64,000 nt of DNA from an uncultured Bacteroidales bacterium (GTDB lineage: Bacteria > Bacteroidota > Bacteroidia > Bacteroidales > UBA932), in the NCBI GenBank assembly GCA_900320185.1, contig ONRD01000010.1:1-64000 (forward strand), read 5' to 3'. Positions 4,676 to 57,441 of the stretch are shown in pieces (the first letter of the stretch is position 1; each line of letters opens with the position of its first letter). Under the pieces are notes generated by a model that searched no databases, was not told the origin of the DNA, and saw only the letters and a program-made list of their open reading frames with translations. The position numbers were made by a program, and so were the translations under genes.

Positions 4676-5284
4676 ATGACAAAGGAAGACATCACCGTGG
4701 AGGTTGCCTCCGAAGGGCACCTCCGCTATGTCGGGGAGATTCTCGCCACGATAGAGGACGCCGCCAAGGTGCGGGGGACCGGTATCGCAACCAGGAAGCC
4801 GGAGTACATATCCAGGAAGATCATGGAGGCCAAGGCTGTGATAGCTCTCTACGGAGAGCGGTTCGCCGGTTTCAGCTACATCGAGACATGGGAGCATAAG
4901 AGATATGTCACTACCTCCGGCCTGATAGTCCATCCGGATTTCAGGGGACTCGGCCTTTCGAAGAAGATCAAGGACCTGACTTTCTCCCTGGCGCGTACGA
5001 GGTGGCCGCATGCCAAGATATTCAGCCTCACCAGCGGAGCCGCAGTCATGGCGATGAACACCCAGCTCGGCTACAAGCCGGTGACGTTCGCCGACCTGAC
5101 CTCCGACGAGTCCTTCTGGAAAGGCTGCGAGGGATGCGTGAACGTGGACATACTCAAACGCACCGACCGGAAGTACTGTATCTGTACCGGCATGCTCTTC
5201 GATCCGGAGGAGCATCTCCCGGCGAAGATCCCTCAGGGGGTCCTGGACAGGATAGCCCTGCTGGACGGAAACGAAAATGAATGA
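4676..5284 (+). CDS. GNAT N-acyltransferase of the arginine cluster (candidate acylglutamate synthase)
   Basis: A 202-residue GNAT-fold protein. The acyl-CoA binding signature is in GLIVHPDFRGLGLSKKIKDL (residues ~82-101, R/Q-x-x-G-x-G/A pattern), followed by AVMAMNTQLGYKPV, the typical beta-bulge and C-terminal GNAT strand. It lies 14 bases after argR and overlaps argG by four bases (ATGA). No separate argA or argJ is in the window, and the pathway needs an enzyme to acylate glutamate. By position it is the best candidate for that first step. Whether it uses acetyl- or succinyl-CoA is unknown, and the assignment is inference from context. Confidence 0.75.
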   Translation: MTKEDITVEVASEGHLRYVGEILATIEDAAKVRGTGIATRKPEYISRKIMEAKAVIALYGERFAGFSYIETWEHKRYVTTSGLIVHPDFRGLGLSKKIKDLTFSLARTRWPHAKIFSLTSGAAVMAMNTQLGYKPVTFADLTSDESFWKGCEGCVNVDILKRTDRKYCICTGMLFDPEEHLPAKIPQGVLDRIALLDGNENE

Positions 5285-6522
5285 CAATGATCGATATGGA
5301 AGAGAAAAAGAAAAAAGTGGTGGTCGCCTACAGCGGAGGTCTTGACACTTCGTTCACGGTGATGTACCTGGCAAAGGAAAAAGGCTGTGAGGTCTATGCG
5401 GCATGCGCCGACACCGGCGGGTTCAGTCCCGCGCAGCTCAAGGACAACGAGCAGAGGGCCCTCCAGCTCGGGGCCAAGGAATATGTGACCCTCGACGTCA
5501 CCAAGGAGTACTATGACAAGAGCCTTCGCTACATGGTCTACGGAAACGTCCTGAGGAACGGGACCTACCCTGTCTCGGTGTCCTCGGAAAGGATATTCCA
5601 GGCCATCGCGATAGCCCGCTATGCGAAGCAGATAGGGGCGGATGCCATAGCCCATGGCTCGACCGGAGCCGGCAACGACCAGGTCCGCTTCGACATGACC
5701 TTCCTGGTGATGGCCCCCGGCATCGAGATCATCACCCTGACCCGCGACATGGCCCTGACGCGCCAGTTCGAGGTCGACTATCTCAACGCCCACGGCTTCA
5801 AGGCTGACTTCGCCAAACTGAAATATTCCTACAATGTGGGACTCTGGGGGACTTCCATCTGCGGAGGCGAGATCCTGGATTCCAGGCAGGGCCTGCCGGA
5901 GTCGGCCTACCTTAAGCAGGTGACGGAAAGCGAGCCCCGGACGATCGAGATTGGTTTCGAGAAGGGTGAGATCTGCTCTGTCGACGGCGAGGTCTTCCAT
6001 GACAAGGTGGCTGCCATCCAGAAAGTGGAGTCCATAGCCGCTCCCTACGGGATCGGGCGTGACATGCACGTCGGCGACACCATCATCGGAATCAAGGGGA
6101 GGGTAGGCTTCGAAGCTGCCGCCCCCATGCTCATCATGGCGGCCCACAAGTTCCTCGAGAAGTTCACGCTCAGCAAATGGCAGCAGTACTGGAAGGACCA
6201 GGTGGCCAACTGGTACGGCATGTTCCTGCATGAAAGCCAGTATCTCGAGCCTGTGATGAGGGACATCGAGGCCATGCTGGAGAGCAGCCAGAGGAATGTG
6301 AACGGGAAAGTCACCATGAAGCTGATGCCGCACTGCTTTGAGACTGTCGGCGTGGATTCTCCGGACGACCTCGTGAAGACCAAGTTCGGGGAATACGGCG
6401 AGATGCAGAAAGGGTGGACCAGCGAAGATGCCAAGGGCTTCATAAAAGTGTCCTCGACGGCGATGAGGGTTTACTACGCCGCCCACAAGGAGGAAGGAGA
6501 GAAACTCGAGAAGGAACTGTAG
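5281..6522 (+). CDS. argG: Argininosuccinate synthase
   Basis: Catalyses citrulline + aspartate + ATP to argininosuccinate in the cytosol. It has 413 residues; the N-type ATP pyrophosphatase loop is AYSGGLDTS (residues 16-24), and GNDQVRFD, CGGEILDS and related blocks are intact. Its ATG overlaps the GNAT stop codon (ATGA), and argC starts one base after its TAG, so translation is coupled on both sides. In-frame ATGs follow at 5287 and 5296 (MTMIDMEEKKK); either could be the true start without affecting the domain. Confidence 0.96.
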   Translation: MTMIDMEEKKKKVVVAYSGGLDTSFTVMYLAKEKGCEVYAACADTGGFSPAQLKDNEQRALQLGAKEYVTLDVTKEYYDKSLRYMVYGNVLRNGTYPVSVSSERIFQAIAIARYAKQIGADAIAHGSTGAGNDQVRFDMTFLVMAPGIEIITLTRDMALTRQFEVDYLNAHGFKADFAKLKYSYNVGLWGTSICGGEILDSRQGLPESAYLKQVTESEPRTIEIGFEKGEICSVDGEVFHDKVAAIQKVESIAAPYGIGRDMHVGDTIIGIKGRVGFEAAAPMLIMAAHKFLEKFTLSKWQQYWKDQVANWYGMFLHESQYLEPVMRDIEAMLESSQRNVNGKVTMKLMPHCFETVGVDSPDDLVKTKFGEYGEMQKGWTSEDAKGFIKVSSTAMRVYYAAHKEEGEKLEKEL

Positions 6523-6523
6523 G

Positions 6524-7513
6524 ATGGAATTCGACGGAAAGATAAAGGTCGGCATCGTCGGTGCTGCCGGCTACACCGCCGGGGAACTCCTGAGGATCCT
6601 TGCCGGCCATCCCCTTGCCAGGGTTCTCTGGGCGCAGAGTTCCAGCCATGCCGATGAGCCGGTGTGGTCGGTCCACCAGGACCTTCTGGGGGAGACGGAC
6701 CTGTCCTTCGTGGGGGAAACCTTCCCCGGGGAGGCTCCTTCGCCGGACGTCCTGTTCATCTGCTCGGGACATGGCCGGTCGAAGGATTTCGTCCATTCGC
6801 TCCCGTCTTCATACAAAGGTGCGGTCATAGACTTGAGCAACGACTTCCGGCTCGCGGCTGATGCCGAAGGCTTTGTCTATGGCCTTCCCGAAGCATTCAG
6901 GGACAGGATCGCCGGGTCCGGCCGTGTGGCCAACCCCGGCTGTTTCGCGACCTGCATCCAGCTTGCCCTTCTTCCTGCGGCAAAGGCCGGAGGACTGCCG
7001 GAGGTGCATGTGACGGGCATCACCGGCTCGACCGGAGCCGGCCAGAAGCCTTCCGAAACCACTCATTTCAGCTGGCGGGACAGCAACCTTTCCGTCTACA
7101 AAGCCTTCACGCACCAGCATCTCGGGGAGATAAGGGAAACCCTCCTCTCCCTCGACCCTCAATGGTCCGGGGAGATCAATTTCGTCCCGGTCCGGGGGGA
7201 TTTCACTCGTGGCATACTCTCGTCCGTCTATTTCGACTGGGAATATTCCCAGGAAGATGCCGTCCGTACCTACAAGGTCTTCTACCGGAACGCCCCCTTC
7301 GTCCATGTGCTGGAAACCAATCCCGACATGAAGATGGTCGTGAACACGAACAAGTGTGTCCTGAGTGTCCGCAAATATGGGCGGAAACTCCATGTTGTCA
7401 GCGTGATAGACAATCTTGTAAAAGGTGCTTCCGGGCAGGCCGTCCAGAACATGAACCTCATGTTCGGCATTCCCGAGGACACCGGGCTTCACCTCAAGGG
7501 CTCCAGATTCTGA
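6524..7513 (+). CDS. argC: N-acyl-gamma-glutamyl-phosphate reductase
   Basis: NADPH-dependent reduction of N-acylglutamyl 5-phosphate to the semialdehyde. It has 329 residues, with an N-terminal Rossmann loop GAAGYTAGEL (residues 13-22) and the catalytic cysteine Cys140 in NPGCFATCIQ. The C-terminal domain ends with the usual VKGASGQAVQNMNLMFG block. It starts one base after argG and is followed five bases later by argD. All expected motifs are present. If the pathway uses N-succinyl intermediates, as in Bacteroides fragilis, the substrate here is the succinyl form. Confidence 0.95.
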   Translation: MEFDGKIKVGIVGAAGYTAGELLRILAGHPLARVLWAQSSSHADEPVWSVHQDLLGETDLSFVGETFPGEAPSPDVLFICSGHGRSKDFVHSLPSSYKGAVIDLSNDFRLAADAEGFVYGLPEAFRDRIAGSGRVANPGCFATCIQLALLPAAKAGGLPEVHVTGITGSTGAGQKPSETTHFSWRDSNLSVYKAFTHQHLGEIRETLLSLDPQWSGEINFVPVRGDFTRGILSSVYFDWEYSQEDAVRTYKVFYRNAPFVHVLETNPDMKMVVNTNKCVLSVRKYGRKLHVVSVIDNLVKGASGQAVQNMNLMFGIPEDTGLHLKGSRF

Positions 7514-7518
7514 AAACC

Positions 7519-8640
7519 ATGGATCTTTTCGACGTATATTCACTTTTCGACGTGACCCCGGTAAAGGCCAGGGGCACGCGCCTCTGGGATGACAAGGGAC
7601 AGGAGTACCTCGACCTCTACGGAGGCCATGCCGTGATCTCCGTTGGTCACTGCCACCCCAGGTATGTCGAGGCCGTCTCTGATCAGCTGGGACGCATCGG
7701 CTTCTATTCAAACAGCGTCAGGAACCCGCTCCAGGAGGAACTGGCCGCCCGCATCGGGGAACTCTCCGGCCTTGGCGACTACTCGCTCTTCCTGGTCAAC
7801 TCGGGTGCCGAGGCGAACGAGAACGCGCTGAAACTCGCGTCCTTCCACACCGGCAAGGACAGGATCGTCGCCTTCGAAGGAGCCTTCCATGGCAGGACCT
7901 CCGGGGCCGTAGCAGTCACCGACAACCCTCGGATCCGTTCGCCGTTCAATTCCTGCCACAAGGTAAGTTTCGTCCCTTTGGACGACATCGCCGCCGTCGA
8001 GGCTGAGATAGCGCGGGGCGATGTGGCGGGAGTGATCATCGAAGGCATACAGGGAGTCGGCGGAATCCGGATCCCGGGCGACGGCTTCCTCCGCGAACTG
8101 AGGGACCTTACCCTCCGCACGGGGACGGTGCTGATCCTGGACGAGATCCAGAGCGGCTACGGGAGGACCGGCCGATTCTTCGCCCACCAGTGGGCAGGGA
8201 TCCGCCCCGACCTGGTCACCATGGCCAAGGGGATGGCGAACGGGTTCCCCATCGGCGGGGTGCTTGTCTCGCCCGCCTTCAAGGCCGTCAAGGGAATGCT
8301 GGGCACTACTTTCGGAGGCAATTACCTGGCGATGGCGGCCGCCCTGGCCGTAGCCGGGATCATCACGGATGAAGGCCTTGTCCAAAACGCCGCCGAGGTA
8401 GGGGAATACCTCATGTCCAGGATACCTTCTTCTCCCAGGATAAGGGAAGTCCGGGGCAGGGGACTCATGATCGGCCTGGAATTCAACGAGCCGGTAGCGC
8501 CGTTGCGCAGCTCCCTGCTGTTCGGGAAACACATATTCACGGGGGTCTCCGGCAAGGACATGATCCGCCTCCTGCCGCCTCTGGTGCTTACAAAGGAAGA
8601 CGCGGACATATTCATCGATGCATTGGAGGACCTGTTATGA
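7519..8640 (+). CDS. argD: N-acylornithine aminotransferase
   Basis: PLP-dependent class III aminotransferase converting the N-acylglutamate semialdehyde to N-acylornithine. It has 373 residues from ATG 7519. The motifs are in order: YLDLYGGHAVISVGHCHP, NSGAEANENALKLA, ILDEIQSGYGRTG and the Schiff-base lysine Lys237 in TMAKGMANG. The open frame extends upstream to 7162, but that part lies inside argC in another frame, so it was rejected. The stop codon overlaps the next start (ATGA). It is slightly shorter than the usual ~375-400 residues but complete. Confidence 0.95.
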   Translation: MDLFDVYSLFDVTPVKARGTRLWDDKGQEYLDLYGGHAVISVGHCHPRYVEAVSDQLGRIGFYSNSVRNPLQEELAARIGELSGLGDYSLFLVNSGAEANENALKLASFHTGKDRIVAFEGAFHGRTSGAVAVTDNPRIRSPFNSCHKVSFVPLDDIAAVEAEIARGDVAGVIIEGIQGVGGIRIPGDGFLRELRDLTLRTGTVLILDEIQSGYGRTGRFFAHQWAGIRPDLVTMAKGMANGFPIGGVLVSPAFKAVKGMLGTTFGGNYLAMAAALAVAGIITDEGLVQNAAEVGEYLMSRIPSSPRIREVRGRGLMIGLEFNEPVAPLRSSLLFGKHIFTGVSGKDMIRLLPPLVLTKEDADIFIDALEDLL

Positions 8641-10247
8641 AATCATTTTTCCATGTGGGCGACATAGGCGACCTGGGCAAGGCGCTTGAAGAGGCAAGGC
8701 AGGTCAAGGCGACTCCCTACGCCTGGAAGGACCTTGGCCGGAACAAGACAATCATGCTGATATTCTTCAACAGCAGCCTGCGCACTCGCCTCAGCAGCCA
8801 GAAAGCCGCCCTCAACCTTGGGATGGACCCGATCGTGCTCAACATCGGCGCCGAAAGCTGGAAACTGGAGACGAGGATGGGAGTGGTCATGGATTCGGAC
8901 AAGTCGGAGCATCTCCGCGAGGCTATCCCGGTCATCGGCAGCTACTGCGACATCATCGGGGTGCGTTCCTTCGCCGGGCTCACCGACCGTGACTTCGATT
9001 ATTCCGAGACCATCCTGAACCAGTTCGTCGAATATTCAGGGCGACCGGTGATCTCGCTCGAATCGGCCACGGTGCATCCCTGCCAGGCGTTCGCCGACCT
9101 GATTACCATTGAGGAGTACCGCCGCAAGCCCCGTCCCAAGGTGGTCTTGACATGGGCTCCCCATCCCAAGGCCCTGCCGCAGGCGGTGCCCAACTCCTTC
9201 GCGGAGTGGATGAATGCCGCCGACGTCGATTTCGTGATAACCCACCCGGAGGGCTATGAACTGGATTCCCGCTTCGTCGGGAATGCCAGGGTCGAGTACG
9301 ACCAGATGAAGGCGCTCGAAGGTGCCGACTTCGTCTATGCCAAGAACTGGTCTTCATTGAGCGAATATGGGAAGGTGCTGAGCATGGACAGGTCCTGGAC
9401 GGTCGATGCGGCCCACATGGCCGTCACCGACGACGCCTTCTTCATGCACTGCCTGCCCGTGCGCAGGAACATGATAGTCTCCGACGAGGTGATAGACTCG
9501 CCCCGGAGCATAGTCATTCCGGAAGCCGCCAACCGCATGCAGTTTTCTTCCATACGCGGGCTCAAGATCCTCGTCCACGGAGGCGGGAAGACAGCAACGG
9601 CCCTGGCCTCGAAGCTGGGTGTGGAAACCCGGATGATAGACGGCCGGAGGATCACCAGCGCAGAGATGCTGAAGGTGGTTACCATGGTCTACGGGGGACT
9701 GGTGAACAAGAACCTGGTCGCCCGCCTGCAGGCCCTCGGGGTCAACGCCATCGGCTTGAGCGGAGCGGACATGAACCTGATAATGAGCGTCAAGCGTCCC
9801 GTCGAACTGGTCAATTTCGGCTATGTCGGGGATGTCCGTTACGTCAATGTGAAGGCACTGGTGTCGCTCCTGGAGGCGGGAGCCGTGCCTGTCTTCGCCC
9901 CGCTGACCCATGACAAGGAAGGCTCCATGCTCAACACGAATGCCGACACCATAGCGTCCGCCCTGGCCCAGGCCCTGTCGCCTTCCTACGATGTGACTCT
10001 TACCTATTGCTCGGACATGCCCGGGGTGCTCCGGGATGTCGGGGACCCGTCTTCGGTCATAAAGACAGTGACAAGGGCTGATTTCGACCCTCTGGTTGCC
10101 GACGGCACCATCTCCCGGGGAATGATCCCGAAACTCCAGAATGCTTTCGATGCCATTTCGGCGGGAGTGGGGAGGGTCGTGATCACCTCGGCTGCTTCAC
10201 TGTCAGGAGGGACCACCATAAAGGAGGTGCCCGAGTCCGATGACTGA
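8637..10247 (+). CDS. argF'-argB: Fused N-acylornithine carbamoyltransferase (ArgF') and truncated acylglutamate kinase (ArgB)
   Basis: One uninterrupted 536-codon frame. Residues 1-300 match Bacteroidota ArgF' end to end (NSSLRTR carbamoyl-phosphate site, HCLPVRR near 280), stopping at IPEAANR, after which the B. fragilis enzyme continues for ~16 residues. Residues ~303-536 match ArgB from the end of its first helix (LKILVHGGGKTAT, LKVVTMVYGGLVNKN, LNTNADTIA, GMIPKLQNAF) but lack the first ~28 residues, which hold the first beta-strand with Lys-x-Gly-Gly and the catalytic N-terminal lysine. Both partners are thus trimmed at the junction (9534-9545). From family knowledge the kinase half should be inactive; ArgF' may be impaired because its final helix is missing. 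Residue 90 is Ser where the B. fragilis succinylornithine enzyme has Pro. It may be a true deletion or an assembly error. Confidence 0.9.
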   Translation: MKSFFHVGDIGDLGKALEEARQVKATPYAWKDLGRNKTIMLIFFNSSLRTRLSSQKAALNLGMDPIVLNIGAESWKLETRMGVVMDSDKSEHLREAIPVIGSYCDIIGVRSFAGLTDRDFDYSETILNQFVEYSGRPVISLESATVHPCQAFADLITIEEYRRKPRPKVVLTWAPHPKALPQAVPNSFAEWMNAADVDFVITHPEGYELDSRFVGNARVEYDQMKALEGADFVYAKNWSSLSEYGKVLSMDRSWTVDAAHMAVTDDAFFMHCLPVRRNMIVSDEVIDSPRSIVIPEAANRMQFSSIRGLKILVHGGGKTATALASKLGVETRMIDGRRITSAEMLKVVTMVYGGLVNKNLVARLQALGVNAIGLSGADMNLIMSVKRPVELVNFGYVGDVRYVNVKALVSLLEAGAVPVFAPLTHDKEGSMLNTNADTIASALAQALSPSYDVTLTYCSDMPGVLRDVGDPSSVIKTVTRADFDPLVADGTISRGMIPKLQNAFDAISAGVGRVVITSAASLSGGTTIKEVPESDD

Positions 10248-10348: not shown

Positions 10349-12016
10349 ATGAAAAGAGCAATCCCTGTAATCATCTCCTTGCTCCTTCCCCTGGCCATGT
10401 CCGCACAGGGGCAGGCAGCCCAGGATGCCGCCAAGGCGGCTGCCTGGAAGTCGCATGCGGCTGCGATAAGCAAGTATCTTTCCACTGACTATCCCGGCAG
10501 TATCGTGTCGGTCAAGGTCAGTGGGGACAAAGTCTGTATCCGCGGAAGGAAACCTTCCGGGGATAACATGTTCCTTACCGAAATCACTCCCTGGGAAGAG
10601 GTGTACGGACCCGGGATCGAGGACGGGCTGGTGGCCGTGAAAGGACGCCGTTTCAAGGTCAGCCTGCCCAGGATGGTCGAGCGGGACGGGATAGTCTATG
10701 ACCGTGCGCTTTCGCGCTGGGCCCTTGTGGAGAAGACCCCGGAAGGGGTCGCCCTAGCCTCGCATGCCCGTTATGCAGATGTCATCCCCGCGCTCTTCAA
10801 GGCGCCCAGGATGGAACTGAAAGGGAAGAAAGGGCTTGGCGGCTATCGCCTGAACCGTTTCCAGGAGGATCTCGAGTCCCTGGGAATAGGTTCGGTGACC
10901 ATCAACATCCATCTGAACTCTTTGCTTTACGCTTCTGAAAGACCGGATGCCATCCCTTATGAATATGGCGGGATAACCTACTGGTTCGATTCCGCCAGGG
11001 TGGACTACCTTGACAGGGTGCTTTCATATTGTACCGACAGGGGCGTGGTCACCTCGGCGATCACCCTCATCGACCTTCGGAGCGCCGACCCCACCCTTAC
11101 TCCCGTGTTCAGGCATCCTGACTGCGACGGAGGCTTCTATTCGATGCCGAACATGACCACTCCGGCAGGGTTCAACGCCTATGCCGCGGTGCTGGATTTC
11201 CTGGCGGGCAGGTATTCTACCGGAGAGCACGGGCGCATCAACAACTGGATAATCCACAACGAAGTGGACTATGGTTTCGGTTGGACTAACATGGGCCACC
11301 AGTCCTACGAGGCCTACATGGATGCCTACGAGAAGTCGATGAGGCTCAATTACAACATAGCCGTCGCTTATGACCAGAACTGCTGGGTGCTGGGATCGTA
11401 CACCCACAACTGGAACGTTCCCGAGGACGAGAATGGTTTTCCCGTGACGAGGATGCTTGATGACCATCTGCGTTATTCAAGGCTTGAAGGAGACTTCCGC
11501 TGGGGAGTGGCTCAGCATCCGTATCCCCAGGACCTCTTCGCGCCCGAGTTCTGGAAGAACGACACGCGTTCCACCTACGACACCGGTACCGACTACCTGA
11601 CTTTCAAGAACCTGGAGGTCATAGACAAGTGGATCCGGGACAAGGACAGATTCTACCGCGGAAAGACCAAGCGCCTGCTCTTCCTTTCCGAGAACGGGAC
11701 CAATTCTCCAAGTTATTCCGAAACCGACCTTACCAACCAGGCGGCCGGAGCGTGCTGGGCCTGGAAGAAGATCAGCGCCCTGCCCGGGATCGATGCCGTC
11801 CAGTGGCATGCCTGGATTGACGACCGTGGCGAATTCGGTCTCAGGATCGGCCTTCGCCGCTTCCCCGACGACGAGGAAGAACCGGGCGGGGTGAAACCTG
11901 TCTGGAAAGTGTGGGAGGCTGCAGGAACGCCTTCTGAAGATGAAGTGTTCGCTCCTTACCTGAAGGTCATCGGCCTTGGGAGCTGGCAGGAGATTTTCCA
12001 CGAAGTGGGCAAGTGA
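10349..12016 (+). CDS. Secreted DUF5722 protein, glycoside-hydrolase-like
   Basis: A 555-residue exported protein (signal peptide MKRAIPVIISLLLPLAMSAQ) of the DUF5722 family. After a small N-terminal beta domain (~45-150) comes an apparent TIM barrel: NNWIIHNEVDYGFGW (Glu305) resembles the acid/base 'NE' of clan GH-A, and LLFLSENGTNS (Glu448) sits where the nucleophile strand would be. A retaining glycosidase is therefore plausible, but the substrate is unknown. It is placed between argF'B and argE, 101 bases after argB and 15 before argE, an odd site for an extracytoplasmic enzyme. An in-frame start at 10307 lies before the signal peptide and was rejected. Confidence 0.75.
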   Translation: MKRAIPVIISLLLPLAMSAQGQAAQDAAKAAAWKSHAAAISKYLSTDYPGSIVSVKVSGDKVCIRGRKPSGDNMFLTEITPWEEVYGPGIEDGLVAVKGRRFKVSLPRMVERDGIVYDRALSRWALVEKTPEGVALASHARYADVIPALFKAPRMELKGKKGLGGYRLNRFQEDLESLGIGSVTINIHLNSLLYASERPDAIPYEYGGITYWFDSARVDYLDRVLSYCTDRGVVTSAITLIDLRSADPTLTPVFRHPDCDGGFYSMPNMTTPAGFNAYAAVLDFLAGRYSTGEHGRINNWIIHNEVDYGFGWTNMGHQSYEAYMDAYEKSMRLNYNIAVAYDQNCWVLGSYTHNWNVPEDENGFPVTRMLDDHLRYSRLEGDFRWGVAQHPYPQDLFAPEFWKNDTRSTYDTGTDYLTFKNLEVIDKWIRDKDRFYRGKTKRLLFLSENGTNSPSYSETDLTNQAAGACWAWKKISALPGIDAVQWHAWIDDRGEFGLRIGLRRFPDDEEEPGGVKPVWKVWEAAGTPSEDEVFAPYLKVIGLGSWQEIFHEVGK

Positions 12017-12031
12017 CGGGGACTGTTCGCC

Positions 12032-13075
12032 ATGGACATCATCGGACTGCTTGAAGACTTGATCAGGATTCCTTCCTTCAGCAGGGAGGAGGGACCCGCC
12101 TGCGATTTCCTGCAGGCGTGGATGGCGGGACATGGCTTCGGCGCCGTCAGAAGGACCGGCAACAATCTCTGGGTCGAGTCCGAACCTCCTTCCTCAAAGC
12201 CGACCGTCATGATGAACGCCCACCTGGACACTGTCCGTCCTGCTTCCGGATATACCCGGGACCCGTTCACGCCTTCTTTGGAAGATGGCCGGATCTACGG
12301 GCTGGGGAGCAATGACGACGGTGGTTCACTGGTCGCCATGCTGGATGCATATTCCCGCCTCTCGGCGAAGTCTCAGCCTTACAGGCTCGTCTTTTCCGTC
12401 ACGGCGGAGGAGGAAGTGAGCGGCACCGGAGGCATGGACCTGCTCCTCAAGGATACCGGGGACGTGGATTTCGGGGTGATAGGGGAGCCGACCGGGATGG
12501 CGATGGCGGTCGCTGAAAAGGGATTGATGGTGCTGGACTGCACAGCCCGCGGCAAGAGCGGACACGCTGCGCGTGACGAGGGGGTGAACGCCATCTACAA
12601 GGCGCTGGATGACATCCGGTGGTTCCGGACCCACCGCTTTGAAAGGGTCTCCGATTTCCTGGGACCCGTCAAGATGAGCGTCACGATGGTGTCGGCGGGC
12701 ACCCAGCACAATGTCGTCCCGGACTCTTGCTCGTTCGTCGTCGACGTGCGTCCGAACGGGCTTTACACCAATCCCGAACTGCTGGCAATCATCGAAGGGA
12801 GTGTCTCGTGCGAGGTGAAGGCACGTTCCACCAGGCTCGGAAGTTCGAACCTGCCGTTGTCCCACCCGGTTGTCGCCAGGGGACTGTCCCTGGGACTTGA
12901 GCCTTTCGGGTCTCCGACCACCAGCAACCAGGCAGTGTGTCCGTTCCCGACATTGAAGATCGGTCCGGGGCAGTCCAGCCGCTCGCATTCCGCCGACGAG
13001 TTCATATTGCGGGATGAGGTCCTTGCCGGGGCTGAAACCTATTTTTCCCTGCTCGACTCCCTGGAACTAGGGTAA
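12032..13075 (+). CDS. argE: N-acylornithine/N-acylcitrulline deacylase, M20 family
   Basis: Zinc-dependent M20 peptidase-fold amidohydrolase, 347 residues. Metal and catalytic residues are visible: His64 and Asp66 in NAHLDTV, Asp95 in GSNDDGG, the general base pair in TAEEEVSG (126-127) and EPTGMAMAVAEKG after it. The dimerisation domain spans ~165-275, and the C-terminal zinc histidine lies in SRSHSADEF. In the ArgF' pathway carbamoylation precedes deacylation, so the natural substrate is probably N-acylcitrulline. Cluster position supports ArgE over other M20 enzymes. It lacks a signal peptide, consistent with a cytosolic role despite its secreted neighbours. Confidence 0.87.
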   Translation: MDIIGLLEDLIRIPSFSREEGPACDFLQAWMAGHGFGAVRRTGNNLWVESEPPSSKPTVMMNAHLDTVRPASGYTRDPFTPSLEDGRIYGLGSNDDGGSLVAMLDAYSRLSAKSQPYRLVFSVTAEEEVSGTGGMDLLLKDTGDVDFGVIGEPTGMAMAVAEKGLMVLDCTARGKSGHAARDEGVNAIYKALDDIRWFRTHRFERVSDFLGPVKMSVTMVSAGTQHNVVPDSCSFVVDVRPNGLYTNPELLAIIEGSVSCEVKARSTRLGSSNLPLSHPVVARGLSLGLEPFGSPTTSNQAVCPFPTLKIGPGQSSRSHSADEFILRDEVLAGAETYFSLLDSLELG

Positions 13076-13122: not shown

Positions 13123-14055
13123 ATGAAAAAAGTTCTTTACCTGCTGCTCGCGGCAGCCATAGCGGTGCCGCTGCAGTCTTGCAAGAAGGGGCCGTCTCCA
13201 AAGGCCTCCCATGTGGTCTTCCTCGCACTTGACGGCTGGGCTACCCAGAGCTTCGAGAACGACCTTGACAACATGCCGACCGTGAAGAAACTGATGGAGG
13301 AGGGCTGCTACACTTTCCGCAAGCGCTCCACGATGCCTTCTTCCTCGGCTACGAACTGGGCTACCATATTCATGGGCGTCCCTCCCGAGATGCACGGCTA
13401 CAACGCCTGGGATTCCAAGGTCCCGGCCATAGAGCCGTATGCCGTCGGGAAGAACGGGATGCCGCCGACCGTGTACACCCTTCTGGCGGAGCAGCGTCCC
13501 GAGGCCGTGTCGGCCTGCATCTACAATTGGGATGGCATCGGCTACGTGGTCGACACCGCCGCCGTGGGTTTTCATCTGTACGACCCTGGCTATCACGACC
13601 AGTCGGATTCAACCTATGACGTGCTGTCCTACACCAGGAGACAGGCCGTCAGGTACCTCGAGGAGAACAAACCTGCATTCTTCACCTTCTACATCGGCGA
13701 CGTGGATCTCTGGGGACACGACTGCGGCTGGGAGTCCGAAGAGTACAGGAAGTGCCTGGCGCAGACCGACGAGGCTATCGCCCTTGTCATCCAGACCCTC
13801 AAGGACCAGGGCATGTATGACGACACGGTCATAGTCGTCACTTCCGACCATGGTGGCATGGGAAATGGCCACGGAGGGTTCACCCTCAAGGAGATGGAGA
13901 CTCCTTTCGTGATTGCCGGAAAGAACGTAGCCCGCAAGGGTGAGATCGGCTCGTTCATGATGCAGTACGACGTCGCTGCCACCCTCGCCGAAGCCCTTGG
14001 CCTCCGGATACCTTCGGACTGGAGGGGCCGGAGTGTACCTGTTTTTGAAAAGTAA
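13123..14055 (+). CDS. Alkaline phosphatase superfamily (NPP-like) lipoprotein
   Basis: A 310-residue phosphoesterase of the nucleotide pyrophosphatase/phosphodiesterase type, with a lipoprotein signal ending LQSC (Cys20). The metal-binding pattern is complete: Asp37 in LALDGWA, the nucleophile region PSSSATN, DVDLWGHD, and the SDHGGMGNGHGG block near 245-256. By alignment with its paralogue at 31805-32761 (PSVTLPN, Thr nucleophile) the nucleophile here is Ser75. It probably releases phosphate or nucleotides outside the cytoplasm. It lies between argE and argH, five bases before argH, so it shares their transcript although it has no evident role in arginine synthesis. Confidence 0.82.
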   Translation: MKKVLYLLLAAAIAVPLQSCKKGPSPKASHVVFLALDGWATQSFENDLDNMPTVKKLMEEGCYTFRKRSTMPSSSATNWATIFMGVPPEMHGYNAWDSKVPAIEPYAVGKNGMPPTVYTLLAEQRPEAVSACIYNWDGIGYVVDTAAVGFHLYDPGYHDQSDSTYDVLSYTRRQAVRYLEENKPAFFTFYIGDVDLWGHDCGWESEEYRKCLAQTDEAIALVIQTLKDQGMYDDTVIVVTSDHGGMGNGHGGFTLKEMETPFVIAGKNVARKGEIGSFMMQYDVAATLAEALGLRIPSDWRGRSVPVFEK

Positions 14056-14060
14056 CGGCC

Positions 14061-15401
14061 ATGGCAAACAAACTTTGGGACAAAGGTTATTCGGAAGACG
14101 CAAGGATAGACGCCTTCACCGTCGGAAATGACCGTGAACTCGACCTTGCACTTGCTCCATACGACATCCTGGGCACCATAGCCCACATAACCATGCTCCG
14201 GAGCGTGGGGCTCCTTCAGGAGGAAGACCTGCACTTGCTTGTCCCTGAACTAAGGTCCCTCTACCGGGAGGCGATTGACGGCGGTTTCGTCATCGAGCCT
14301 GACGTGGAGGACGTGCATTCACAGGTCGAACTGGAACTCACCCGCAGGCTCGGGGACATCGGCAAGAAGGTGCACACGGGACGTTCCCGCAACGACCAGG
14401 TCCTGCTCGACCTGAACCTCTATGCCAGGGCCAGGATCGAAAAGACCGTCCTGAAGGCTGCAAGCCTTTTCAGGACCCTCCAGGATGCCAGCGAAAAGTA
14501 CAAGGATGTCCTGATCCCGGGGTACACGCACCTTCAGGTGGCCATGCCCTCCTCCTTCGGGCTGTGGTTCGGAGCCTATGCGGAAAGCCTTGCTTCCGAC
14601 CTCGGTGTCATGAAGGCGGCCTGGGACTTCGTCAACCGCAATCCCCTGGGGTCGGCCGCCGGCTACGGCTCTTCCGCCCCCCTTGACCGGGAGATGACGA
14701 CCCGGCTGCTGGGCTTCGACACCCTTGACTACAACTCAGTCTATGCGCAGATGACCCGCGGCAAGATGGAAAGGATCGTCTCGTTCGCATATTCCTGCAT
14801 AGCCGAGACAGTGGGCAAGCTTGCGTGCGACGGCTGCCTGTTCTCCAGCCAGAACTTCGGTTTCCTGCATCTCCCCGATGCACTCACTACCGGGTCCAGC
14901 ATAATGCCCCACAAGAAGAACCCCGACGTGTTCGAGCTTGTCAGGGCTCATTGCAACAGGATACTGGCTGTCCCCGGCTCGGTGCGCCTCGTCACCGGCA
15001 ACCTTCCGTCAGGCTATTTCCGCGACCTGCAGGTCCTCAAGGAGGTCTTCTTCCCTATCTTCGATGTGATGGACGACTGTCTGGACATCGTCGGATATGC
15101 GGTACGGGGCATGGAAGTCAACACCTGCGTGATGGAAGATCCCAGGTACAAGCTCTCTTTCAGCGTCGAGGAAGTGAACCGGCTAGTCGAATCCGGCGTG
15201 CCTTTCAGGGATGCCTACCGCCAGGTCGCCGCCTCCATCCAGGACGGCTCCTTCGAGTTCCACGGGAAACTGGAACATACCCACGAAGGCTCGATAGGCA
15301 ATCTCTGCAACGACCGTGTGGCCGCCAGGCTGGAAAAGGTGCTGGAGGGCTTCGGCTTCGACAAGGTCCGTTCCGCCATAGCCGGCCTCGCGGGTGAATG
15401 A
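14061..15401 (+). CDS. argH: Argininosuccinate lyase
   Basis: Final step of arginine synthesis, splitting argininosuccinate to arginine and fumarate. It has 446 residues of the fumarase/aspartase superfamily. The conserved blocks VHTGRSRNDQV (~110-120), GYTHLQVAMPSSFG (~154) and the superfamily signature GSSIMPHKKNPD (~279-290, catalytic serine in this loop) are all intact. It begins five bases after the phosphoesterase gene, and its TGA overlaps the ATG of the repeat ORF behind it. It is the last recognisable arginine gene of the cluster. Confidence 0.96.
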   Translation: MANKLWDKGYSEDARIDAFTVGNDRELDLALAPYDILGTIAHITMLRSVGLLQEEDLHLLVPELRSLYREAIDGGFVIEPDVEDVHSQVELELTRRLGDIGKKVHTGRSRNDQVLLDLNLYARARIEKTVLKAASLFRTLQDASEKYKDVLIPGYTHLQVAMPSSFGLWFGAYAESLASDLGVMKAAWDFVNRNPLGSAAGYGSSAPLDREMTTRLLGFDTLDYNSVYAQMTRGKMERIVSFAYSCIAETVGKLACDGCLFSSQNFGFLHLPDALTTGSSIMPHKKNPDVFELVRAHCNRILAVPGSVRLVTGNLPSGYFRDLQVLKEVFFPIFDVMDDCLDIVGYAVRGMEVNTCVMEDPRYKLSFSVEEVNRLVESGVPFRDAYRQVAASIQDGSFEFHGKLEHTHEGSIGNLCNDRVAARLEKVLEGFGFDKVRSAIAGLAGE

Positions 15402-34318: not shown

Positions 34319-35767
34319 CTATTGCTCCGAGGGTTGCAGGAACGAAAGATACCGTCGTTTCACGATTCCTTTCGGGGCGACCTCCATGATCATGGGAAGG
34401 GTCGAGAGGTCGAAAGTCGACAGGAGTTTTTCCGCTACGCGCGGTTTCTTTTCCGTAAGTTCGTCAAGGTCGACGGAGAGGTACCTGATGCCGAGGGAGT
34501 CCATGGCGGCCTCTTCCCGGGCGCAGACCGGGCAGCCTTCGGTATGGAATATGACATGTCCGCCTTTCCTGCGGAGCTTGCTCCAGCCCTTCAGGCCGCA
34601 GATCTTCGGAATCCTGGAACCGACAGGGGACAGCGAGAGGATGCCGGCTTCCATCGATGCCATCCCTATGACCTTGAGGCTGTCGTCGGGAGTGTCCCAG
34701 ATGTCCGGGCGGGACAGGATATATTCATTGACAAAGGGGAGCGTAGCCTCTTTCGAAGCCTCGTCCTTCCTGGGAACCAGGTAGTAGAGCAGGTCGCCGA
34801 CCGCGTGTTTGTAGAGGAGGGTGTCTTCCTTGGCAAGTGCGCCCTCCGCAAGCATCCGTGCCGTCTGCAGTATGTTCTCCTTGGAAAGGTCGTTGCCGAA
34901 CGGAGCGAGCAGTGAGTCGAAGAAGGAGTTCATCGCGTCACTGCCGTAGGAGTAGTCCTCCCTTGACAGGAGTATTTCCACAAGCTGCCCGAGGGCCTCC
35001 GTGTCCATCCCGCGGCCGACTATGGTCCCTCTTGGGTTCACCAGGAACATCCTGGGAGTCTGCAGGACCCCGTATTTCCTCTGGTAGTCGGAGGAGACCG
35101 AGGGATCCCAGAGATTGAAAACCCTGGTGTCAGGGGCGTCGATGTCGAACCTGCCGGCAATCCACCTCTGCCATGCTTCCCTGTCCTGCCCGGTGTTGAC
35201 GGCGTACAGGTCGACGGGGTAGTCCTTGTCCCTGAGTAGACTCTTCAGGAATATTGTCTCCGCCCTGCACCTTGAGCAGTCGGTGTCGTAGAACAGGAGG
35301 ATGCGGTAGCGCTCGGAGCGGCCTCCGAAGTGGACGGAGACGCTGTCGGGGTCGAAGAGGTCCAGCCCGGGAGCCTGCATCCCCAGGAGCGACTCGCGGT
35401 TGAATTCGGCGTAGACCAGGGCATCGGTAAGGGCTGTCTCGCTTCCCATGGCGACCTTTCCGGGAGCGAACCAGGTGTCTGTCATGTGGATGGCGACGGC
35501 CTCGTCCCCCATCACCGGGGAGTTCAGGTAATGCTCGTAGACATGCAAGGCTATGTGCTGCCTCAGAGCCGGATCCTTGGCAGCTTCAATGAGCTTGTCG
35601 CATTCTTCGTTCTTTACTTCGACCTTCTCCCTCTCGAGGGTGCGGTAATAATCCTCCAGCTTCGAGTCGAGTTCCTTGAAACGGGACGTGTCCACCTGCG
35701 CCGCGCAGTGGAACGCAGCGGAGAGGGTCACCGTAAAGGCGACGAGAGTCAGGACAAGGCGTTTCAT
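34319..35767 (-). CDS. DUF5106 protein with two thioredoxin-like domains
   Basis: A 482-residue exported protein (signal peptide to ~CAAQ). The N-terminal ~130 residues are helical DUF5106. A first thioredoxin/TlpA-like domain follows, with the redox motif CSRC in FYDTDCSRCRAE (~164-167) and a cis-proline-type segment GVLQTPRMFLV (~235). A second, shorter thioredoxin-like domain near the C-terminus carries CPVC in HTEGCPVCAREE (~413-416) and a second cis-proline-like STLPMIM (~457). Two distinct CxxC centres suggest a periplasmic thiol-disulfide relay. Its ATG overlaps the coaD stop (ATGA). Confidence 0.75.
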   Translation of the reverse strand: MKRLVLTLVAFTVTLSAAFHCAAQVDTSRFKELDSKLEDYYRTLEREKVEVKNEECDKLIEAAKDPALRQHIALHVYEHYLNSPVMGDEAVAIHMTDTWFAPGKVAMGSETALTDALVYAEFNRESLLGMQAPGLDLFDPDSVSVHFGGRSERYRILLFYDTDCSRCRAETIFLKSLLRDKDYPVDLYAVNTGQDREAWQRWIAGRFDIDAPDTRVFNLWDPSVSSDYQRKYGVLQTPRMFLVNPRGTIVGRGMDTEALGQLVEILLSREDYSYGSDAMNSFFDSLLAPFGNDLSKENILQTARMLAEGALAKEDTLLYKHAVGDLLYYLVPRKDEASKEATLPFVNEYILSRPDIWDTPDDSLKVIGMASMEAGILSLSPVGSRIPKICGLKGWSKLRRKGGHVIFHTEGCPVCAREEAAMDSLGIRYLSVDLDELTEKKPRVAEKLLSTFDLSTLPMIMEVAPKGIVKRRYLSFLQPSEQ

Positions 35768-53121: not shown

Positions 53122-54216
53122 GTGAAACAACTGTTGTCGGTCATTGCAATCATGATGACGGGCGTCTGCTTACATGCCCAGACGCCTGAGGCCTATGTCG
53201 CGACCTGGGCCCCCGTCGCCGTGGAGGAAATGTACCGGAGCGGTGTGCCTGCCAGCATCACCCTGGCCCAAGGCATACTCGAGTCCCGGTGCGGCCTGTC
53301 TTCTCTCGCTGCCGAAGGCAACAACCATTTCGGGATCAAATGCCACAAGGACTGGAAAGGCAGGAAGCAGTACCACGACGACGATGCCAAGGGTGAGTGT
53401 TTCAGGGTGTACGACAGCCCTGAGGAATCGTTCAGCGACCATTCGGACTTCCTCCGCTACTCGGACCGCTACAAGTTCCTGTTCGAGCTTAAGACCACCG
53501 ATTACAAGGGCTGGGCCTACGGGCTGAAGAAAGCCGGCTATGCGACGGATCCCGGGTACCCTGACAAGCTGATCAGGTACATCGAGGAGAACAAGCTTTA
53601 TGAATATGACAGGATGACCCCCGGGCAGGCTGAAGAGTCGGTGGCCGGCAAAGCCGTCACCAAGCCTTCCGGGAAGGACTCGGGCAAGGTGAAGTCCGTA
53701 AAGAAGAAGTCCGGGAAGGCCTCCAGGAGCGGCAGGAAGTCCCGGAAATCTTCGAAGGCCGCCCCCAAGGCCGAGGCCATTCCGGAGTCCCCGCTGTCGC
53801 TGGAGGCTCCAAGGACGGTGGACAGGAGCAGTCTGGAGAAATTCAAATTCTCCCTTTCGCGTCCTGTCTACACCCGCAACGGAGTGCCTTACGTCCTGTC
53901 CATTGAAGGGGAGACATATTCAAGCATTGCAAAATCCTACGACCTCTTCCTGAAGGAGATACTCAAGTTCAACGACCTTGTCTCGGAAGAGCCCCTCGCT
54001 CCCGGCACCATAGTCTACATCCAGGCGAAGAAGAAACAGTCGGAGAAGGGACTGGACATGCATATCGTCGACGAAGACTCGGGATCGCTCCGTGACATAT
54101 GCCAGAGATTCGGTGTGAGGATGGAAAGCGTGAGGAAACTCAACGGTCTTTCCCGCGACTATGAACCTCGCGAAGGGGACACGATCCTCCTGAGGGGAAG
54201 GAAGAAAAAGGTATAG
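53122..54216 (+). CDS. Glucosaminidase-type peptidoglycan hydrolase with LysM-like repeats
   Basis: A 364-residue exported protein starting with GTG at 53122 (signal peptide to ~LHAQ). The N-terminal domain (~20-165) is GH73-like: GVPASITLAQGILESRCG carries the catalytic Glu (~54), then GNNHFGIKCH and YDSPEESFSDHSDFLR. A Lys/Ser-rich linker (~180-225) leads to two LysM-like segments (YVLSIEGETYSSIAKSYDLF... and MHIVDEDSGSLRDICQRFGV...) that would bind peptidoglycan. It is followed six bases later by mltG, suggesting joint cell-wall remodelling. Confidence 0.88.
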   Translation: MKQLLSVIAIMMTGVCLHAQTPEAYVATWAPVAVEEMYRSGVPASITLAQGILESRCGLSSLAAEGNNHFGIKCHKDWKGRKQYHDDDAKGECFRVYDSPEESFSDHSDFLRYSDRYKFLFELKTTDYKGWAYGLKKAGYATDPGYPDKLIRYIEENKLYEYDRMTPGQAEESVAGKAVTKPSGKDSGKVKSVKKKSGKASRSGRKSRKSSKAAPKAEAIPESPLSLEAPRTVDRSSLEKFKFSLSRPVYTRNGVPYVLSIEGETYSSIAKSYDLFLKEILKFNDLVSEEPLAPGTIVYIQAKKKQSEKGLDMHIVDEDSGSLRDICQRFGVRMESVRKLNGLSRDYEPREGDTILLRGRKKKV

Positions 54217-55251: not shown

Positions 55252-55269
55252 ATTTTGCCCTGTCGTGCC

Positions 55270-57441
55270 ATGATAGACGTAAGACAGAGATTCCCTCAGT
55301 TCGACGAGGCGGGCCAGGACATGATACGGCGCGCCCTGGACATCGCTGCGTCCGCCCTCGATGGCCAGGTACGCGGGAACGGCCGCCCTTTCCTCGAGCA
55401 TCCGGTGAACGTTGCCCTCATAGCATCGGACGAAATCGGCCTTCCGGCGGACTGCGTCGCAGCAGTGTTCCTGCATGAGGCCGACCGTATGGGAAACCAG
55501 GGCCCGGACGGCCTGGCTTCCATCCAGGAAAGGTTCCCTGGATTCCCCAAGGATGTCTACACCATGGTCGACGGCCTTGGGAAGATATCCACCATAAAAC
55601 CCAAGGACACCCGTCTCGAGGCCGAGAACTACAAGAAACTCATAGTCCAGTATTCGACGGATCCCCGTGTCGCCGTACTCAAGATCGCCGACCGGCTCGA
55701 GGTGATGCGGAACCTGGACCTGTTCCCCCGGACCTCCAGGGAGAACAAGATACTGGAGACCCTGCTGCTGTACATCCCCATAGCTCACCAGCTTGGGCTG
55801 TACAATATCAAGCGTGAGATGGAGGACATCTACCTCAAGTTCACCGAACCCGAGCAGTACAGGGCGATCACCAACAAGCTCAAGGCCGGGGAGAGGGACC
55901 GTGAGCGGCTGATGATGGAGTTCATCCAGCCTCTCAAGCAGGAGCTTTCGGAAGCCGGGATACGCTACCGGCTCAAGATAAGGACCAAGGCCGCCTACTC
56001 GATCTGGTGCAAGATGCAGAAGCAGAAGGTGCCTTTCGAAGGGGTCTACGACGTGTTCGCCATCCGTTTCATCATCGACTGCGAGCCCGATCCGAAAGTC
56101 GAGAAAGACCTTTGCTGGAAGGTTTTCTCCTATGTGACCAAAGAATATGAGCAGGACACGCGGCGTCTTCGGGACTGGATCACCAATCCGAAGCCGAACG
56201 GCTACGAATCCCTCCATATCACCGTCAAGAACAAGCGCGGAGCCTACATCGAGGTCCAGATCCGTACCGCAAGGATGGACGATGAGGCGGAGAACGGGCA
56301 GGCTTCCCATTGGTCCTACAAGGGAATCAAGCACGAAGAACACCTTGACCGGTGGCTGAAGAGCGTGCGGTTCGCCCTTGAGCATCCCCAGGAAGCCGAT
56401 CCCGAGGATCTTCCCACTCCTCCGTCCAAGGAAATATTCGTCTTTACACCCACCGGCGAACTGAGGACCCTTACCGCGGGCGCAACCGTACTTGACTTTG
56501 CTTTCAGCATCCATTCCGGTCTCGGGATCAAGTGCACCGGCGGCAAGGTGAACGGAAAGGCCGTGCCCATCCGGGAGCGGCTGAAGACCGGGGACGTGGT
56601 CGAGATCATGTCGGGGAAGAACCAGAAGCCTTCTCCGGACTGGCTTAACTTCGTGGTTTCGTCAAAAGCGCGCAGCAGGATAAAGAGGGAACTGGACGCA
56701 GAGGAATTCAAGAAGGCATCGAGGGGAAAGGAGCTTCTCGGAAGGCGCCTGAAGAACTGGAAACTCGAACTCCCCGACGACATGCTCTCCGAGTACCTCA
56801 AGAAGCATAAGATAGGGACCATCAACTCTTTCTTCGCAAGGGTCGCGGACGGTGCCATCGACGTAAATGAAATCAAGTCCTACATCCTGGAAGGTAGCAG
56901 GGGCCCATCTTCCCCGGCAGAATCCCAAAGGCAACCGGAGCCCGGGAAGGGTGCCGCGTCCTGGGATGAAGGCAAAGTCTCGACCGATGACATACTGGTC
57001 ATAGGAGCCAAGGACCTCAAGGGACTGGAATACAAGATGGCGAAATGCTGCCATCCGGTCTTCGGGGATGACGTCTTCGGGTTCGTGACCCGCACCGAAG
57101 GAATCAAGATCCACAGGATCTCGTGTCCCAATGCTTCCAGGCTCATCGGCGCCTACCCCTACCGGATCCAGAAGGTCAGATGGGCCGACACCCCGTCGGG
57201 AGGGACTTTCCAGGGGTCGCTCCGGATCGTTTCCTCCACGGAGTCCAGCATAATAGGCCAGATCACCCAGATCGTCGGTTCCTTCAAGGCATCCCTCCGT
57301 TCCTTCAACGTCGTCGAGAACTCCAGGAACGGAACCTATGAGATATCCATGAAGGTTTCGGTACCCTCGAACATGGAACTGGACAAGGTCATCTCCCAGA
57401 TAAAGCTACTGAAGGGGGTCCAGAAGGTGGTTCGCTCCTGA
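55270..57441 (+). CDS. RelA/SpoT-family (p)ppGpp synthetase with degenerate hydrolase domain
   Basis: A 723-residue RSH protein: HD-like domain (~25-180), synthetase (~225-345), TGS (~390-450), helical region, zinc-finger-like CC motif ([10 protein letters not shown]) and C-terminal ACT (~650-723). Synthetase residues are intact: RTKAAYSIW, the Asp in [15 protein letters not shown] and EVQIRT. The hydrolase site is not: the usual HDxxED reads HEADRM, and the ADRLxNMR motif reads ADRLEVMR (Asn to Val). The protein should therefore make but not degrade (p)ppGpp. A second RSH elsewhere would be needed for hydrolysis. I chose ATG 55270 over the upstream frame start at 55255. Confidence 0.9.

Follow-up and report, generated by a model that had tools for sequence, protein, structure and literature searches.

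The window, as the whole 64,000-nt stretch of DNA that was analysed is called here, comprises bases 1 to 64000 of a 65,680-base contig from the draft genome of an uncultured Bacteroidales bacterium (2.28 Mb in 49 contigs, 92.8% complete). An arginine biosynthesis cluster was found on its forward strand. The cluster is headed by an ORF (4676..5284, +) that is conserved there in relatives and had no Pfam match; we take it to be acyltransferase-like, and it is possibly the first-step enzyme. Three genes follow on the same strand, which we take to be argG (5281..6522), argC (6524..7513) and argD (7519..8640). The first is full length and 89% identical to three relatives without gaps, the second is full length and 73 to 75% identical to genomes G033 and G665 along all 329 residues, and the third encodes a class III aminotransferase and overlaps argF' by 4 nt. 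After the argF' and argB sequences come a DUF5722 gene (10349..12016, +), a full-length gene for an argE-like enzyme of the M20 peptidase family (12032..13075, +; assessed by comparison with relatives), which is perhaps a desuccinylase, and a full-length argH (14061..15401, +; 303.8 bits against a cut-off of 279.5). The DUF5722 gene had no match in the other loci compared, whose flanks mostly covered 1.5 to 6 kb. In 22 of the 23 ArgB-clade loci, the start of argE lies −5 to 34 nt from the end of argB (the value for locus L105 being discounted), and the DUF5722 gene is a second change next to argB in the window. A type I phosphodiesterase/sulfatase-like gene at 13123-14055, between argE and argH, was seen in the same place only in G033 among the stretches compared, with a weaker match elsewhere in G665.

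The argF' and argB sequences occupy a single frame of 536 codons (8637-10247, +). The initial annotation had described a switch within this frame from acylornithine carbamoyltransferase to acylglutamate kinase after IPEAANR (residue 300), and this was confirmed by the frame itself and by Pfam and NCBIfam matches. Residues 1 to 300 (8637..9536, +) form a carbamoyltransferase of the N-succinylornithine type that is without its final helix, with homology ending at IPEAANR. The joint lies at 9536..9537 (+), and residues 301 to 536 plus the stop codon (9537..10247, +) form an ArgB kinase remnant without the first strand or the K-x-G-G motif; this remnant keeps the columns that are invariant in the alignment. 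Homology to ArgB restarts at an internal ATG (MQFSS in the fusion, MSFSS in relatives). Pfam matched OTCace_N at residues 12-160, OTCace at 184-302 and AA_kinase at 296-518, and the AA_kinase match did not start until profile position 21. The NCBIfam argB profile TIGR00761 matched residues 297-516 with 181.6 bits, passing the cut-off of 151.3, and was entered at position 18 of 231. The N-acetylornithine carbamoyltransferase profile matched residues 10-302 with 285.2 bits, slightly below its cut-off of 288, and was left at position 323 of 336. The frame does not correspond to a natural fusion of two complete domains, as 16 and 26 residues are absent at the joint. A search of an open-access library listed no such argF'-argB fusion by title or abstract opening.

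The locus was compared with those of relatives, mostly uncultured Bacteroidales and Bacteroidia and including some Candidatus Cryptobacteroides. A total of 144 relative loci were entered, 13 were dropped because a neighbour was missing, distant or incomplete, and 131 were kept (113 distinct). Alignment of sister loci, a check proposed with the initial annotation, detected an argF' with its own stop codon and an argB with K-x-G-G within its first 40 residues in all 131 adjacent pairs, and none of these was fused. The commonest arrangement was an ATGA overlap of the two genes (52 of 113 distinct pairs). The only fused loci were L001 and L114, and both are copies of the window locus. Three separate pairs from the same genus (L078, L144 and L003) share the gene order of the window, with ArgF' and ArgB 82 to 86% and 76 to 82% identical to the fusion, respectively, but differ in having two ORFs, an ATGA overlap, 125 nt more and an argE that starts 2 nt after argB. 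Congeners with open frames of 505 to 692 codons at the ArgF' match, among the matches listed from 400 genomes, were treated as suspects. Each of the 20 examined had a stop after the final helix and a K-x-G-G motif, three of them being the same DNA as loci already counted. Four more suspects, in which the match ran past the joint or contained a stop (G173, G419, G374 and G215), were likewise unfused. A natural fusion spread across the genus has so far been rejected on these counts (0 of 131 adjacent pairs and 0 of 24 suspects). A search for the junction pattern in the set viral_contigs gave no matches, which carries little weight for a bacterial gene.

A separate observation concerned the evenness of divergence within the genus. 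ArgF' proteins that are 82 to 86% identical to that of the window adjoin ArgB proteins with identities that range from ∼45 to 63% up to 73 to 82% (L116 versus L117, and other congeners). This suggests that argB has been replaced in place, or has been changing very unevenly, within the genus.

The size of the missing stretch was determined against the 22 closest relatives, defined by an ArgB more than 70% identical to that of the window (L105, likewise above 70%, was excluded). The net loss was 125 nt relative to 18 of these relatives, 127 nt relative to three and 122 nt relative to one. In residues, the last 16 of ArgF' after IPEAANR are absent (15 in comparison with three relatives), as had been proposed, together with the first 26 of ArgB rather than the ∼28 originally estimated. 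The argF' and argB genes of the closest relatives overlap (ATGA) in different frames, so that a loss of 2 mod 3 is needed to join them, and 125 is 2 mod 3. The earlier proposal of a single deletion over the argF'-argB boundary that trimmed both partners was upheld, but not its description as an in-frame loss of 130 to 150 bases, since the change is of 125 nt and switches frame.

These breakpoints bear on whether the joint is an assembly or consensus error, in which case there would in reality be two normal overlapping genes and ∼125 nt would have been dropped from the contig. At most 1 nt is common to both breakpoints, and the longest word shared by their 60-nt neighbourhoods is 8 nt, as measured in the DNA of the 22 relatives, whose argB and argF' are at most ∼76% and 79% identical to the window, respectively. 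With no longer word present, a k-mer collapse is not expected, and the breakpoints show no repeats of a kind that could account for a short-read collapse, although these statements derive from the sequence of relatives. Such an error would also have had to preserve the frame, which happens by chance in one case in three. A deletion scan was performed on 36 window ORFs that were picked by a script (argC was dropped because of overlap, and a few may be nongenes), each being compared with stretches from at most four relatives. Among the 36, no other ORF was clearly cut by a deletion, and an intact alternative piece was absent from the bin. The larger gaps were of 22 residues in 53122-54216 (59% identity) and 12 residues in 55255-57441; a 16-residue gap in 34319-35767 was seen against G663 only. 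Compared with G663, G665 and G033, the ArgD protein is missing a stretch of 39 to 46 residues, whereas its alignment to G347 shows no gap of this kind. On the other side, the genome is a draft in 49 contigs, and none of the other loci examined showed the fusion. The other pathway genes are whole, the ArgB remnant looks broadly constrained, and it would be odd for argB to be lost while argG, argC, argD, argE and argH stay. An intact pathway with a seemingly constrained remnant fits an artefact as well as it fits a recent mutation. We regard an assembly error as a possibility to be taken seriously, while holding that it falls short of being probable.

A search for a second argB, a check proposed with the initial annotation, found none in the genome, which is 92.8% complete. 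The fused protein as a query matched only the fusion and a chance-level hit (E value of 0.1), and a TIGR00761 profile search returned the fusion only. Four genes carry PF00696, namely, the fusion, an aspartokinase, a UMP kinase and an aspartokinase-homoserine dehydrogenase; the three other than the fusion look like two aspartokinases and a UMP kinase. An intact ArgB start was also absent, as the first 60 ArgB residues of a relative matched only the fusion, and only from query residue 26 onward. As the assembly may be without about 7% of the genome, these searches do not prove that another argB is absent. The aspartokinase-homoserine dehydrogenase (L208:2640-4781; G000:C4) was itself of unusual length. 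It has 713 amino acids, ∼105 fewer than the 821- to 827-codon frames of three congeners, and a shortened kinase domain. Truncation of this gene (thrA) was considered and rejected in favour of a short, divergent form that has a start of its own.

Another route or enzyme could have taken over the kinase step, making argB dispensable without auxotrophy, as was suggested when the fusion was first described. The retention of the other arginine steps is consistent with replacement, as is the situation in five congeners for which a strong ArgF' match was the sole one among the matches listed: G029, G083, G102 and G321 gave no TIGR00761 hit, and G001 gave a weak one. In G029 (92% complete), argF' lies in the middle of a contig and argH lies elsewhere; that argH is at a contig start, however, and argB may lie in a gap. 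The congener genomes are drafts that are 58 to 92% complete in this set (G321, 67%), and G083 and G102 are likewise without an argH above the cut-off. No candidate enzyme was found, nor any positive evidence that the cell has replaced the step, and we consider replacement very unlikely. One stretch of G029 (C18; L174 and L175) holds the head ORF, argG, argC, argD and argF' together, with no argB, argE or argH match on the part examined.

The kinase half was then compared with ArgB proteins (TIGR00761; PDB 1gs5 and 2jj4). It shares with them the GGG, GRR, NxNAD and MIPK motifs, the roles of which in ArgB we take from general knowledge, and the remaining chain. It differs in lacking the first 26 residues, which include the first strand and K-x-G-G, and it has no separate start ahead of these residues. 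The K-x-G-G lysine is presumably K8 of E. coli NAGK. In PMC2851564, K8 and D162 are given as key catalytic residues of the E. coli enzyme. The GapMind report (PMC7311316) lists the B. fragilis ArgB as an N-succinylglutamate kinase and states that succinylated intermediates seem to be used by most Bacteroidetes.

A bolder reading is that of a working chimera with two arginine steps on one polypeptide, in which the end of the knotted carbamoyltransferase, or a trimer neighbour, would supply the strand and loop. AlphaFold prediction of the fusion on 28 alignment rows gave a mean pLDDT of 87.8 and a pTM of 0.60; a control run on the intact L078 ArgB, with 29 rows, gave values of 94.0 and 0.91. Strands at 5-11 and 35-40 and a helix at 19-30 were present in the control model. 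The fusion model had pLDDT values below 50 at residues 296-301 and a beta-2 strand reduced to residues 312-313. No strand was predicted between 294 and 311 in place of the lost beta-1, which goes against the earlier idea that the fused enzyme forms this strand in some other way. A Foldseek search with the fusion model detected NAGK chains and, as a fold match, SOTCase (69% identity), which is a trimer with a trefoil knot. The model retains most of both folds, the frame is preserved, homology restarts at a clean codon, the remnant looks broadly constrained and the TIGR00761 cut-off is passed, all of which would suit a working enzyme. The alignment rows were intact proteins, however, and a good score elsewhere in the model is no proof of folding. 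The K-x-G-G loop is physically absent, whereas all 131 adjacent relatives keep it, and a kinase that works without this motif is improbable; we hold a working chimera to be very unlikely.

The carbamoyltransferase half was similar to the B. fragilis SOTCase (2fg6/1js1), with 69% identity over residues 1 to 300. Like SOTCase, it has E142, H176, K236 and a Ser at position 90. The carbamoyl-phosphate motifs given for SOTCase in PMC4581275 are SxRT, HPxQ and HxLP, and all are present, as SLRT at S47-T50, HPCQ at 147-150 and HCLP at 271-274. According to PMC7311316, a preference for the succinyl substrate is marked by Ser, Pro, Ala or Val at position 90, and Ser90 of the fusion fits such a preference. 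The succinyl anchors of the B. fragilis enzyme are H176, R178 and R278 (PMC4581275); the fusion keeps H176, has Lys at 178 and has R276-R277, where the numbering is perhaps off by one. Unlike SOTCase, the fusion has this Lys, is without the last helix and carries a 236-residue kinase remnant on the end that would have to thread the knot. The final helix after NR is absent, and 14 to 25 residues follow NR in all 131 relatives. We infer that the missing helix is helix 12 of the SOTCase literature, across which helix 1 runs according to PMC4581275. That paper also describes a knot in which the 70 C-terminal residues thread a proline-rich loop. The fusion would need to thread a larger tail through this knot, minus the last helix. 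Experiments described in PMC2912335 indicate that large chains attached at the termini do not impede knotting, and the knot is therefore by itself no proof of misfolding.

Constraint on the remnant was examined as an indication of the age of the event. In a set of 24 rows, the ArgB remnant was altered at 5 of 118 otherwise invariant columns, as were L147 (5/118) and L124 (5/118), while L105 was altered at 15 of 128; the ArgF' of the window was altered at 2 of 190. A remnant that looks so broadly constrained indicates that the event is young or artefactual or that function persists, and the small number of altered columns, as in L147 and L124, fits a young event. The pN values for ArgB were 0.157 in pairs that include the window and 0.113 in other pairs, and those for ArgF' were 0.105 and 0.084, with synonymous sites near saturation. 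In trees, the end branch of the window was 0.26 for ArgB and 0.097 for ArgF', a ratio of 2.7; this ratio was lower elsewhere (L147, 1.3; L124, 1.8; L105, 1.9; L148, 2.0; L064, 2.2). The branch ratio is a hint of faster ArgB change on the window branch, fitting an older event. It was given little weight, because the position of the window differs between the two trees and its ratio of mean pairwise distances (1.48) resembles those of L105 (1.48), L064 (1.54) and L124 (1.56). Long relaxed selection on the remnant was not clearly supported and was set aside.

Counted in favour of a real deletion were the joint without a repeat, the unfused relatives, the lack of a second argB, the lack of a predicted strand, the few altered columns, the key catalytic role given to K8 of E. 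coli NAGK and the finding of no other clear cut among the 36 ORFs. Counted against it were the single assembly, the wholeness of the other arg genes, the branch ratio and the possibility that an argB lies in the missing 7%. On balance, we judge a recent loss-of-function deletion in this genome, with a dead kinase and perhaps arginine auxotrophy, to have slightly better than an even chance of being correct. A deletion of ∼125 nt would have cut the argF'-argB boundary recently, in the lineage or the strain, and, being 2 mod 3, would have brought both genes into one frame. Against this, a random deletion would join the frames in just one case of three, and a simple knockout does not require it. 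The product would be a 536-residue chimera that is probably unable to phosphorylate N-succinyl(acetyl)glutamate, as it is missing both the first strand and the loop, K-x-G-G, that holds the catalytic lysine. The carbamoyltransferase half, without its last helix and with a partly folded tail, may also be impaired. Arginine or a late precursor would then have to be taken up from outside, the remaining pathway not yet having decayed.

Passage of the fused ArgB above the TIGR00761 cut-off despite the loss of K-x-G-G is a warning for profile searches. If the joint is an artefact, it calls for caution in reading gene fusions from draft genomes. If the deletion is real, the pathway has been caught at the moment of loss, with one step destroyed and the rest whole, and the way in which auxotrophy begins in such gut Bacteroidota becomes testable.
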